Of a stretch of 64,000 bases of DNA, positions 776 through 55,482 are shown in pieces (position 1 is the stretch's first letter; each line of letters starts with the position of its first letter). The position numbers and the translations under genes are program-made. The DNA is taken from contig NZ_VISE01000001.1 in assembly GCF_007827275.1 (NCBI RefSeq), positions 1,426,001-1,490,000 of the forward strand, in the 5' to 3' direction. This stretch comes from Gillisia sp. Hel_I_86 (lineage in GTDB: Bacteria; Bacteroidota; Bacteroidia; Flavobacteriales; Flavobacteriaceae). Below the pieces are notes generated by a model. That model was not told the DNA's origin, ran no database searches, and worked only from the letters and a program-made list of their open reading frames with translations.

Positions 776-782
776 TATATAG

Positions 783-806
783 GCCTCGAATTTTCGGGGC
801 TTTTTT
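783..806 (+). terminator. rho-independent terminator after accC
   Basis: GCCTCGAA pairs with TTCGGGGC (one T-G wobble) and is followed directly by six T. It begins 7 bases after the accC stop codon. Confidence 0.8.
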
Positions 807-14679: not shown

Positions 14680-15435
14680 TTAATCTAGCTTTTTAAGTTT
14701 CAATTCTTCCCCATCAAAAACCCCAAAAGTGTAATGTGAGATCCAGTCTCCCAGGTTGATATATTTAGAAGTCCCGTTGAGGTCTATTTCCATTGGTAGG
14801 TGCCTATGCCCAAACACAAAATAATCATAATGTTTGGTCTCCAATTTTTTTCTGGAATATTGAATAAGCCACTCCTTCTCTTCCCCTAAAAATTTTTGAT
14901 CTTCCACACCAGAGATCATTTTATTTTTTACCGATAAATGTTTTGCTAAAGGCACACCAATATCTGGATGTAACCATCTATAAAGCCATTTAGAGACTGG
15001 GTTGGTAAAGACCTTTTTCATACGTTTATAGCCTAGATCATCTGGACCTAACCCATCCCCATGACCTATCAGGAATTTTTTTGTGTTGAATTCGAATTCC
15101 TTTGCTTCGTGAAACACGGGGATATTGAGTTCTTTCTCAAAATAATCGTGCATCCAGAGATCGTGATTTCCCACAAAGAAATAGATAGGGATCCCACTAT
15201 CCCTAATTTCGGCAAGTTTGCCCAGAGTACGTACAAAACCTTTTGGGACCACATGTTTATATTCGAACCAGAAATCGAAAAGATCTCCCAATAAGAAAAT
15301 TGCGGCAGCATCTTCCTTGATCTCGTCCAGCCACTTTACGAACTTTGCTTCCCTAGGTTTGCTTTCTTCTTGAGTAGGTGCACCTAAATGATTATCGCTT
15401 GAAAAGTATATTTTTTTGCCTTCAGGAATGTTCAT
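14680..15435 (-). CDS. lpxH: UDP-2,3-diacylglucosamine diphosphatase-type metallophosphoesterase
   Basis: A 251-residue calcineurin-like hydrolase of the LpxH type, which cleaves UDP-2,3-diacylglucosamine to lipid X in lipid A synthesis at the cytosolic face of the inner membrane. Metal-binding motifs are all present: FSSDNHLGA, GDLFDFWFEY, VGNHDLWMHDY, IGHGDGLG and FGHRHLPMEI. The FDFWFEY segment and the length favour LpxH over other phosphoesterases, but some Bacteroidota carry paralogues. It is followed upstream by a family A repeat and the QueD-like gene on the same strand. Confidence 0.88.
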   Translation of the reverse strand: MNIPEGKKIYFSSDNHLGAPTQEESKPREAKFVKWLDEIKEDAAAIFLLGDLFDFWFEYKHVVPKGFVRTLGKLAEIRDSGIPIYFFVGNHDLWMHDYFEKELNIPVFHEAKEFEFNTKKFLIGHGDGLGPDDLGYKRMKKVFTNPVSKWLYRWLHPDIGVPLAKHLSVKNKMISGVEDQKFLGEEKEWLIQYSRKKLETKHYDYFVFGHRHLPMEIDLNGTSKYINLGDWISHYTFGVFDGEELKLKKLD

Positions 15436-15488: not shown

Positions 15489-15575
15489 TGCGCAAGGGAT
15501 GGCAGCGGCATCCCCCGATTTTTATCGGGGATAGAGCGTACAGCCCGACCTTGCTTTTTCGCAAGGTTGCGCCCT
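15489..15575 (+). repeat. structured intergenic repeat, family A, copy 2
   Basis: Boxes in order: GCGCAAGGGATGGCAGCGG, hairpin CCCCGAT-TTTT-ATCGGGG, AGCGTACAGCCCGACC, hairpin CCTTGC-TTTTTC-GCAAGG, then TTGCGCCC. The right end reaches the stop codon of the convergent-strand queD-like gene (15574-15576). It matches the copies at 811-903 (reversed) and 54762-54870 in layout while the stems differ in sequence. Confidence 0.75.
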
Positions 15576-16026
15576 AAGAATTATCACTGGCAAACCACTC
15601 GGCAAATGAGGTGCCTGTTTCCTGTAGTTTAAGGGAGAACAACTTGATTTGTGGTGGCAACCGATTCTTGATCTTATCGGCAAAGTCCAGCACCATATTT
15701 TCGCTGGTTGGCTGATAACCTACGAGGATCACATTATGATCCCTGCTCTCCAATTCTTTAGCTAATTGGATATGTGGAGTGTTCTTGTTGAAAACCGTAG
15801 CATGATCGAATTTATCCACGATCTCCGATTTCACGATCTTTTTAAGGTCGGTAAAATCTATCACCATCCCATATTTTACGTTGGAAGTATCTGTTATGGG
15901 TGATCCAATAACGGTCACGCTCAGCTTATAACTATGGCCGTGCACATTCTTGCATTTCCCGTCGTAGCCATAAAGTGCGTGCCCGGTTTCAAAAGAAAAT
16001 TGTTTGGTGATCCTAATCTTGTTCAT
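15574..16026 (-). CDS. queD: 6-pyruvoyltetrahydropterin synthase / 6-carboxytetrahydropterin synthase family protein
   Basis: A 150-residue PTPS/QueD-fold enzyme. In bacteria this family usually makes 6-carboxy-5,6,7,8-tetrahydropterin for queuosine. Zinc ligands are the His in SFETGHAL and both His in NVHGHSYKL; the catalytic Cys is in DGKCKNVHGH. The start at 16026 is chosen because MNKIRITKQFSFETGHAL matches the family start; six more codons upstream are open. No other que genes are nearby. Its stop codon lies in the edge of a family A repeat. Assignment to QueD rather than another pterin enzyme is inference. Confidence 0.88.
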   Translation of the reverse strand: MNKIRITKQFSFETGHALYGYDGKCKNVHGHSYKLSVTVIGSPITDTSNVKYGMVIDFTDLKKIVKSEIVDKFDHATVFNKNTPHIQLAKELESRDHNVILVGYQPTSENMVLDFADKIKNRLPPQIKLFSLKLQETGTSFAEWFASDNS

Positions 16027-16086
16027 AACTACAATTTGCTGCAAAGGTATTAATTAAGCGGGCAAAAAAAGATTCTGTTTTTTTAT

Positions 16087-16116: not shown

Positions 16117-16124
16117 AAAGGTAA

Positions 16125-16210
16125 ACTTTAGGGGTGCTGGTTTTTTTTTAATCCGGCTGAGATAAAACCCGTTGAACCTGATCCGGTTAATACCAGCGAA
16201 GGGAAAAGTG
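16125..16210 (+). ncRNA. TPP riboswitch (THI element)
   Basis: The conserved core is plain: GGGGTGCT at 16131-16138, CTGAGATAAAACCC at about 16157-16170, TTGAACCTGATCCGGTTAAT, and ACCAGCGAAGGGAA near 16192-16204. ACTTT before the core pairs with AAAGT after it as helix P1. It precedes thiS by about 100 bases, so it should shut the operon down when thiamine diphosphate is plentiful. No clear terminator hairpin lies between it and thiS, so control may act on translation initiation; this last point is inference. Confidence 0.95.
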
Positions 16211-16311
16211 TTTCTACTATTTAAATCAATATCCACTTTTGGGAGTTTTGGTTTTAATTACTTTTTCTTAGGGAATCCCCCTGTTGTTTACAGCTATTAA
16301 ATATCGAAATA

Positions 16312-16559: not shown

Positions 16560-18422
<1,863 letters not shown>

Positions 18423-45567: not shown

Positions 45568-46053
45568 ATGTTATCCCATAAATTACCGTTGGATGATGTA
45601 GAGGACAGTTATCATTTATTGGCCATCCATAGTTCTTTAGAAGAATTTAAAATGGCTTTTCTATTGAATAGGAATCTGCAATTAAGCCTTAGGCGTGCTC
45701 CATTCGATGTAGATTTTAATCACGGGGAAATACAAGCTTTATATCCACTTTATTTTTTTAAAGAACCTGCGGAATACCGCACCTATTACTTATTTAAGAA
45801 CAAGTACAAAGGATTTGTGAAAAAGGTGGTTAGTTCGGGGTCGTTGTTCGTAGAAGAAGAAATCTCTACCCAACTCACCTATTTAATTCCGGAGTATAAA
45901 AAGGTGGATTATTTTTTAAAGATAGAAGATGATCTGGAGGAAGGGGTTATTCAAGATTTATTGAATGCCATAAGCAGAATTCCGAAGGTTATCACAACAT
46001 TCGTAGTTGATGTAAATCAGCTAAAATCAAGAAACAATTTAATTGTAGATTAA
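45568..46053 (+). CDS. IPExxxVDY-family protein
   Basis: A 161-residue protein of the family named for the motif IPExxxVDY; here it is LIPEYKKVDYFLKIED. Members are found in Bacteroidota, often beside pyk or rnc, and have no assigned function. No signal peptide or membrane segment is seen; the central region is rich in aromatic and charged residues. It ends 2 bases before pyk, so the two are co-transcribed. Confidence 0.85.
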   Translation: MLSHKLPLDDVEDSYHLLAIHSSLEEFKMAFLLNRNLQLSLRRAPFDVDFNHGEIQALYPLYFFKEPAEYRTYYLFKNKYKGFVKKVVSSGSLFVEEEISTQLTYLIPEYKKVDYFLKIEDDLEEGVIQDLLNAISRIPKVITTFVVDVNQLKSRNNLIVD

Positions 46054-54670: not shown

Positions 54671-54761
54671 GAATTTGGATGTTGAGATGTTTGAATTAAA
54701 AGTACTAAAATTAAGTACAGGTCTTGAATGTGCGCTCCAAATTTATAAAAAATGTAAATTT

Positions 54762-54870
54762 TGCGTAAGCGATAGCAGTGGAAAGCCCGCAGTCACGATC
54801 GTGATATTTATCGTGATTGGGACGAGGACTTGCAACGAATAGCGCGGTGCCCGTTAAGGGCATACGCCCA
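54762..54870 (+). repeat. structured intergenic repeat, family A, copy 3
   Basis: Boxes in order: GCGTAAGCGATAGCAGTGG, a hairpin with arms TCACGAT/ATCGTGA, GAATAGCGCGG, a second hairpin TGCCC-GTTAA-GGGCA and TACGCCC. It matches copies 1 and 2 in order of parts while both stems have different sequences, so base pairing is kept. It lies upstream of the 3-hydroxyanthranilate dioxygenase gene. Confidence 0.75.
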
Positions 54871-54945
54871 AAACATTTAGATTAGCTTTACAACTTTGTG
54901 TGGGAGATTGATTAATTTTATACAACTTTTTTAAACTGAGAGATT

Positions 54946-55482
54946 ATGTCAATAAACAAGCCTTTTAACCTTACTAAATGGGTAGAACAAAATAGGGATT
55001 TGCTGAAGCCGCCGGTGGGGAACAAGAATTTATATAGGGAAAGTGACGATTATATTGTGATGATCGTGGCGGGTCCCAACGCTCGTAAAGATTATCATTA
55101 CAATGAGACGGAGGAACTATTCTTTCAGTTGGAAGGCAACATAGAAATTCATGTGCAGGACAATGGCGAGAAAAAAACGATGGAACTGGGGCCTGGCGAT
55201 ATGTATCTTCACCCTGGAAAAGTGCCACATTCCCCGGTAAGGCATGAAGGTTCTATTGGGCTTGTGGTAGAGCGCAAACGCTTTGGGGAAGAAGGGAAGG
55301 ATGGCTTGTTGTGGTTTTGCGATAATTGCAATACCAAATTGCACGAAGTTTATTTTCCGTTGCACGATATAGAAAAAGATTTTCTGGGCCATTTTAAAAA
55401 TTTTTATGGCAGTAAAGAGTTGCGCACCTGTGATAACTGTGGAACGGTGATGCCTGTAGACGAGCGATTTATTAATTCGTAG
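54946..55482 (+). CDS. nbaC: 3-hydroxyanthranilate 3,4-dioxygenase
   Basis: A 178-residue cupin that opens 3-hydroxyanthranilate in the kynurenine route. The iron ligands are in HYNETEELFFQLEG (His, Glu) and HPGKVPHSPVRH; the C-terminus has the rubredoxin-like CDNCNTKLHE and CDNCGTVMP pairs that the bacterial enzyme uses for an extra metal. Start MSINKPFNLTKW is normal. It is followed after 88 bases by an aldehyde dehydrogenase gene; earlier kynurenine genes are not in the window. Confidence 0.95.
   Translation: MSINKPFNLTKWVEQNRDLLKPPVGNKNLYRESDDYIVMIVAGPNARKDYHYNETEELFFQLEGNIEIHVQDNGEKKTMELGPGDMYLHPGKVPHSPVRHEGSIGLVVERKRFGEEGKDGLLWFCDNCNTKLHEVYFPLHDIEKDFLGHFKNFYGSKELRTCDNCGTVMPVDERFINS

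Follow-up and report, generated by a model that had tools for sequence, protein, structure and literature searches.

Flavo-1 copies in a Gillisia genome form a covarying three-way junction and may belong to a dispersed structured element

Three Flavo-1 copies in the window and their neighbors

The window (the whole stretch of DNA analyzed, 64,000 nt of contig NZ_VISE01000001.1 from Gillisia sp. Hel_I_86) contains three copies of a short intergenic element, here called W1, W2, and W3. W3 (54762-54869, plus strand) lies upstream of an nbaC-like open reading frame (ORF) on the same strand (54946-55482, plus), a name that we take from a first-pass annotation of this DNA. W2 (15489-15574, plus) has as neighbors two ORFs that are presumably lpxH-like (14680-15435, minus) and queD-like (15574-16044, minus; stop codon 15574-15576). 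These genes had been described as convergent; both are on the minus strand, so W2 is antisense to both of them. W1 (808-903, minus) is antisense to the 3' part of accC (2-775, plus; name from the same annotation) and sits directly behind the accC terminator, a stem-loop at 781-802 (plus; one found, against a shuffle mean of 0.6) whose T-run comes within 1-2 nt of W1. The first-pass annotation had recognized three copies with fixed boxes and changing stems, which proved to be real, with ends that agree with ours to within a few bases.

The family has a name, although the first-pass annotation knew of none. Our model R1 detects W1 at 67.4 bits (E 4.2e-15), W2 at 74.1 bits (E 8.3e-17), and W3 at 63.9 bits (E 3.3e-14), and finds 12 matches in the whole genome at E<=0.01. 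Against the Rfam family Flavo-1 (RF01705), which has a gathering score of 42 bits, W2 reaches 41.7 bits and W3 28.0 bits (E 3.7e-4), and W1 is absent at E<=10 among the 150 of 951 genome candidates that were scored; a search at Rfam gathering thresholds lists none of the three. We nevertheless file them under Flavo-1, because another copy in this genome scores 58.6 bits and orthologs in sister species also exceed the gathering score: those of W2 at the queD locus reach 44.5-44.9 bits in genomes G003, G006, and G009, and those of W1 at the accC locus reach 47.5 bits in G009 and 52.2 bits in G011. Window copies and Flavo-1 have in common the P1 stem with its unpaired A.G and 3x3 loops, occurrence in Bacteroidota, and multiple copies per genome. 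They differ in that the RF01705 consensus, an imperfect hairpin, leaves both ends unpaired, whereas in the window copies the helices P0 and P2 complete a larger fold, a three-way junction. A scan of 54700-54950 at loose settings returned RF01705 and no other Rfam family, and at four loci that match the box pattern, most of which turned out to lack the element, other families appeared only below threshold.

Flavo-1 is a table entry in the portion of Weinberg 2010 that names it (PMC2864571), and since 2010 the family has stayed an orphan RNA; the passages that we found naming Flavo-1 or RF01705 state no function for it. The relevant passage of a Flavobacterium psychrophilum transcriptome study says that the data obtained there offered no real clue as to what Flavo-1 does (PMC9723704). 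The complete junction, the likely unit boundaries, a tmRNA-leader site in six genera, a link to the ends of antisense genes, and an occurrence on Bacillota plasmids, all described below, now make the family testable.

Two other signals were seen in the window. A TPP riboswitch (RF00059, 74.3 bits) lies at 16120-16221 (plus), upstream of an ORF at 16566 that we take to be thiC, and a weak R1 match at 45726-45792 (minus; 18.1 bits, E 0.019) is probably due to chance.

Fold, covariation, and the strand that folds

The element had been described as two stems that keep pairing while their sequences change. The pairing stands, but the count does not: there are three helices, since the two ends of each copy also pair with one another. 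This outer helix, P0 (5 bp), encloses a stem, P1, and a hairpin, P2, to form a three-way junction. In W3, P0 is formed by 54763-54767 with 54863-54867, the base of P1 (P1a) by 54769-54771 with 54843-54845, and P2 by 54848-54852 with 54858-54862; P0 of W2 is 15490-15494 with 15568-15572. The sequence of P0 varies freely, being GCGTA/TACGC, GCGCA/TGCGC, and GGGTT/AACCC in the window copies and GCATT/AATGC, GCGTT/AACGC, and GTGTT/AACAC in other copies of the same genome. P1 carries two 3x3 internal loops and an A.G mismatch that is fixed in 124 of the 126 copies parsed; the 5' loop reads G-N-A in most copies. Most copies end, on the 3' side, in CC or CA and a run of A's. Copies come in two architectures: type A has P2 (mostly GCGTT..AACGC), and type B (TAGCC..GCT), seen for example in most copies of G040 and G048 and in some of G032, has none. 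In five loci (L278, L279, L281, L292, and L033), the apical part of P1 is about 60-70 nt longer; these extensions are unlike each other in sequence, and the base of P1 is kept.

Thermodynamic folding of single copies recovers much of this architecture. Among the seven own-genome copies folded (of eight then known), the RNA minimum-free-energy structure contains P0, P1a, and the P2 hairpin in six, one of which, L030, lacks the P1b pairs; L031 folds otherwise. Stability relative to shuffled sequences ranges from a z score of -1.19 (L031) to -5.19, and the copy at 54762 stands at only -1.74, with 12 of 200 shuffles equally stable. P0 and P1a occur together in the minimum-energy structure of 57 of 83 type A copies of up to 125 nt, a set that had been listed for its 5-bp P0.

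We aligned 44 sequences, hand-picked from 93 of type A whose P0 has 5 bp; they are 78-99 nt long, except for the window copy of 108 nt. Of the 17 pairs scored, 15 change on both sides. Paired cells make up 97.6%, compared with 78.4% in shuffled alignments and 28.7-42.3% when the two sides are slid against each other; cells with changes on both sides number 132 against 33.6 in shuffles. The covariation score of 0.510 compares with 0.159 after shuffling and no more than 0.088 after sliding. These shuffles take no account of relatedness. One pair, columns 13/79, uses all of A-U, U-A, G-C, and C-G. The 100% pairing of P0 in this alignment is partly by construction, because a P0 of five pairs was a requirement of the list from which the rows were drawn. 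In an unselected check, with the 3' end set by the C[CA]AA box alone, all five P0 pairs formed in 22 of the 44 variant copies considered; 1000 shuffles gave 4.1 such copies on average and never more than 10. P2 pairs less strictly (85.2% of cells), in part because the nbaC copies are shifted by one column there.

A larger set gave a similar picture for P1. It was parsed from 105 fetched loci, the 3 window copies, and 21 orthologs, leaving 126 copies (114 distinct) after G029_L284, G021_L315, and G021_L316 were dropped for an ambiguous P1a; it excludes G037, G052, most of G034, loci L050-L077 unless refetched, and some lower-listed RF01705 rows, and the parses of L033 and L034 were set by hand. 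The parser counted G-U as a pair in a weak tie-break. Across the 114 distinct copies, the P1 pairs that vary keep 94-100% pairing, which at most of these positions greatly exceeds that in shuffles, and P1d4, a position tested beyond these pairs, is not paired (27%, the same as shuffled). Changes at one and the same locus are free of mistaken homology, and they too are compensatory: at the nbaC locus, P0 is GCGTA/TACGC in G000, GCGTG/CACGC in G001, G004, G010, and G011, and GCATG/CATGC in G005; most genomes have GCG/CGC as P1a, and G010 has GGG/CCC. Both outcomes on which the first-pass annotation had staked its structural claim, further copies in the genome and covarying stems, were obtained (12 matches; 15 of 17 pairs, with covariation measured against shuffles), and the covariation in the 44 sequences strongly supports selection on the folded structure.

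Whether that structure is RNA or a DNA cruciform had been left undecided. A cruciform would tolerate G-U and A-C wobbles alike, whereas G-U is the wobble preferred in a single strand, especially in RNA; an excess of G-U therefore leans toward one strand. Over ten P1 pairs in the 114 distinct copies we counted 1095 Watson-Crick, 24 G-U, 5 A-C, and 16 other cells (760, 22, 3, and 13 over seven P1 pairs). Counting wobbles once per pair and genome leaves 16 G-U against 5 A-C, and leaving out pair P1c2, which holds 14 of the 24 G-U cells, leaves 10 against 5. P0 shows 11 G-U and 0 A-C, a biased count because the partner was picked by its pairing. In 60 of 83 copies, folding favors the sense strand over its complement. 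The wobble pattern is not decisive, but it leans toward one folded strand and so narrows the earlier alternative a little. A cruciform or double-stranded protein-binding site would explain inverted repeats in DNA, and single copies folded as DNA adopt nearly the same junction; however, the G-U excess and the strand-specific fixed letters of the loops disfavor it, and we consider it highly improbable. Even less credible is a fork-oriented site on single-stranded DNA that serves as a priming or replication signal. The possibility of single-strand folding and the presence on plasmids would suit such a site, but W1 (minus) and W2 (plus) are 15 kb apart, opposite, and both conserved, a misfit unless the two flank an origin or terminus.

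Conserved loci, tmRNA leaders, and gene orientation

Each window copy recurs at the same place in related genomes. The nbaC-locus element is found upstream of the gene in 11 of 14 loci examined and the queD-locus element in 8 of 16, own loci included; the W1 ortholog is present at 6 of the 13 loci examined for the gene that follows accC, again with the own locus, and 2 of the 7 misses (L133 and L134) are near contig ends. Among 80 named nbaC loci, 9 have the element, in Gillisia, Salegentibacter, Christiangramia, Mesonia, and one Flavobacteriaceae MAG. At the accC site, 0-2 nt separate the T-run of the terminator from the element in G000, G004, G009, and G011, and four other Gillisia genomes (G001, G002, G010, and G013) have a different hairpin, seen by eye, and no element. 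Compensatory change at fixed loci across several species argues for a host function there rather than for decaying insertions.

At 14 of 33 tmRNA loci, the element precedes tmRNA in the same orientation, at a distance of up to about 120 nt, namely, in nine Gillisia genomes and five genomes of other genera (G016, G020, G021, G022, and G023). The 33 loci come from 30 of the 36 genomes in one set plus G002, G003, and G006, with G037, G039, and G047 left out. In the seven Gillisia ssrA leaders inspected, a promoter-like TATCTTTG box, which we take to be a Bacteroidota promoter box, stands 4-5 nt before P0. Three Gillisia genomes (G002, G010, and G013) have no element at the tmRNA locus. The ssrA loci of G010 (L347) and G013 (L351) have a different short leader between the TATCTTTG box and the tmRNA in place of Flavo-1.

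Upstream of the copies in general, promoter-like signals are not clearly enriched. We scanned 102 of the 105 loci with a Bacteroidota-type promoter consensus, taking single-base shuffles as the control and holding the right end of type B fixed. Scores of 9-10 occurred at 6 of 102 loci compared with 6.2 in shuffles, which is no general enrichment, and a score of 8 was in mild excess (35 against 20). Since no promoter signal is clearly enriched, transcription of the copies in general is unsupported, and the suggestion that they are a family of small RNAs has positional support at the tmRNA locus only. In the portion of the F. psychrophilum study that treats Flavo-1, several transcribed 5' regions coincided with Flavo-1 hits, and the hits were indistinctly sense or antisense to transcribed regions, with many outside them (PMC9723704).

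These data bear on whether Flavo-1 is a host regulatory or structural RNA, in which each copy yields an RNA, either a small RNA or a leader, that binds a shared protein, so that the multicopy family serves the host. Such a role would account for the covariation, the retention at syntenic loci, the sense placement before 14 of 33 tmRNAs with the box before seven Gillisia leaders, and the transcribed 5' regions of F. psychrophilum. It sits less well with the lack of general promoter-like enrichment, with the F. psychrophilum hits in either direction and outside transcribed regions, and with gene orientation, half of the loci (39 of 79) being antisense to both neighbors. We regard this explanation as rather unlikely, though stronger than the other alternatives.

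Orientation was assessed at 79 non-Gillisia loci (3 of 82 were dropped for ORF overlap), with neighbors taken from our own ORF calls instead of annotation. The 39 loci antisense to both neighbors compare with 17 sense to both (P = 0.005), and without five near-identical G048 copies the numbers are 35 and 17 (P = 0.018). A gene whose 3' end faces the 3' end of the element lies a median of 38 nt away, compared with 100-153 nt for the other three arrangements. Terminators read into the element's 3' end at 10 of 102 loci against 0.5 in shuffles, 4 of the 10 being from related G048 copies and 4 from G040, and at the 5' end there is 1 in 102 against 0.8. The proposal of an mRNA end signal gains from this closeness to the 3' end of an antisense gene, but loses from accC, whose own terminator precedes the element. 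A signal associated with the 3' end or terminator of the antisense gene, acting in stability, as a boundary, or in collision, would be consistent with the 38-nt median, the 10 abutting terminators, and the position of W2 at the queD stop codon. However, the wobble lean puts the fold on the other strand, the accC terminator precedes the element, and many copies are away from gene ends, which leaves this an improbable account.

Two identical copies in the own genome, L383 and L384 (2025239 and 2901944), each precede a 16S rRNA gene (of two rRNA operons) by about 0.77 kb, in antisense, and similar copies are near contig starts in G014 and G005.

Dispersal, plasmid copies, and possible origins

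R1 matches number 0 to 13 per genome in Gillisia and up to 30 among 40 relatives searched, and RF01705 is present in at least 56 of 395 genomes of a phylum sample, with up to 11 candidates scored per genome; in one genus of that sample (g42), 22 of 23 genomes listed have as many matches as this cap allows. Near-identical copies at different sites reveal the likely limits of the unit. Two G048 copies (L326 and L327) are 99% identical, and their flanks, at 64% and 60%, fall within what unrelated flanks give (95th percentile, 65% and 63%); four further G048 copies are identical, with right flanks at 59-64% and left flanks at 68-91%. In G018, 14 copies, those fetched of 25 R1 matches and picked for similar scores, are 93% identical on average, with flanks at 61% and 59%, and identity drops at the first P0 base and just beyond CCC-AAA. 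Several G018 copies (L386-L399) have diverged left flanks in common (67-88% over 26 to 310 nt; 14 alignments, and 4 for right flanks), perhaps reflecting a fixed 3' end with a variable 5' extent. These common left flanks, together with those of the four G048 copies, mean that some copies may belong to larger duplications, in G018 perhaps older ones in which the element was kept. No target duplication was seen by eye at the G018 junctions, nothing clear emerged among coding frames in the G018 left flanks, and no mobilizing gene was identified, the ORFs that separate closely spaced copies (listed for three of four such intervals) being unassigned reading frames.

The family also occurs outside Bacteroidota. 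Five plasmids of Paraclostridium bifermentans (Bacillota; L404 and L410-L413) carry 8 Flavo-1 copies with R1 scores of 57.3-67.4 bits, and the two on pHD0315_2-5 score 58.1 and 56.0 bits with the Rfam model, above the gathering score. They have their own P0 (GAGTT/AACTC) and P2 (TGGC/GCCA), and P1a occurs as both GGG/CCC and GCG/CGC. On three of the five plasmids, two copies in opposite orientation lie about 2-3 kb apart, near genes for an amidase and for DUF1659, DUF2922, and YvrJ proteins. We found no reference to Bacillota plasmids in the passages of the literature that mention Flavo-1. A plasmid search with one Flavo-1 copy had led to the first of these plasmids; two other query copies, one of which (L284) lacks a parseable P1a, and a phage search with two query copies gave no match. 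Among viral contigs, one stretch holds a full copy (L403), two other stretches have no R1 match, and further scans returned none.

Taken with the fold, these observations lead us to favor, tentatively and with slightly less than even confidence, the reading that Flavo-1 is a dispersed, nonautonomous structured element that acts as a folded single strand and is retained at some loci. We infer both that mobility gave rise to the copies and that a trans-acting protein binds the folded strand, which, given its place in tmRNA leaders and the lean of its wobbles, is more likely RNA than single-stranded DNA. Recognition of the fold by such a protein would keep the shape while leaving helix sequence free. 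Insertion would take place at A/T-rich sites without obvious target duplication, sometimes on the T-run side of a terminator, and some insertions, that in the tmRNA leader above all, would have been retained because a folded leader or processed RNA was useful.

An A-rich 3' junction on a T-run would be in keeping with an RNA copied by target priming, and in this the element resembles eukaryotic SINEs, which are likewise structured, RNA-like units with an A-rich 3' junction and sometimes a T-run target. One could go further and imagine a bacterial SINE-like element, for which the tmRNA leader, with a 5' end that would fall near the first P0 base, would be the standing source RNA; copies would be made into DNA at T-runs by a reverse transcriptase acting in trans, primed via the A-rich 3' end, and would have crossed between Bacteroidota and Bacillota plasmids. 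We offer this extension as a long shot.

MITEs resemble Flavo-1 in being short and nonautonomous, with near-identical copies at different sites, and such dispersed copies do occur in G048 and G018, some of them sharing flanks; unlike MITEs, Flavo-1 has terminal pairing of only about 5 bp, compensatory selection on a fold, and no target duplication visible by eye. REP elements mobilized by RAYT transposases are dispersed short extragenic palindromes, and Flavo-1 is likewise small, palindromic, extragenic, and dispersed. Y1 transposase hits (PF01797, E<=0.001) occur in 19 of 35 Flavo-1-positive genomes and in 7 of 25 negative ones, by a hand tally in which some "negatives" (e.g., G002 and G010) do have R1 matches. 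In the other 16 positive genomes no Y1 hit was found; among these are G018 (80% complete), G032, G037, and G020, with 23, 21, 14, and 13 matches, respectively. Flavo-1 lacks a consistent Y1 transposase and has three covarying helices, and the earlier suggestion of a REP-type element is, in the strict RAYT sense and as far as tested, not supported; we rejected RAYT/REP as a general mobilizer and give this origin very little weight. A literature search on REP and RAYT in Bacteroidetes brought up nothing relevant among the matches listed. The own genome does contain, at C1:2130761-2131012 (plus), a distant Y1 transposase match in a 188-aa frame that is unlike the genome's 135-165-aa ones and could be a RAYT.
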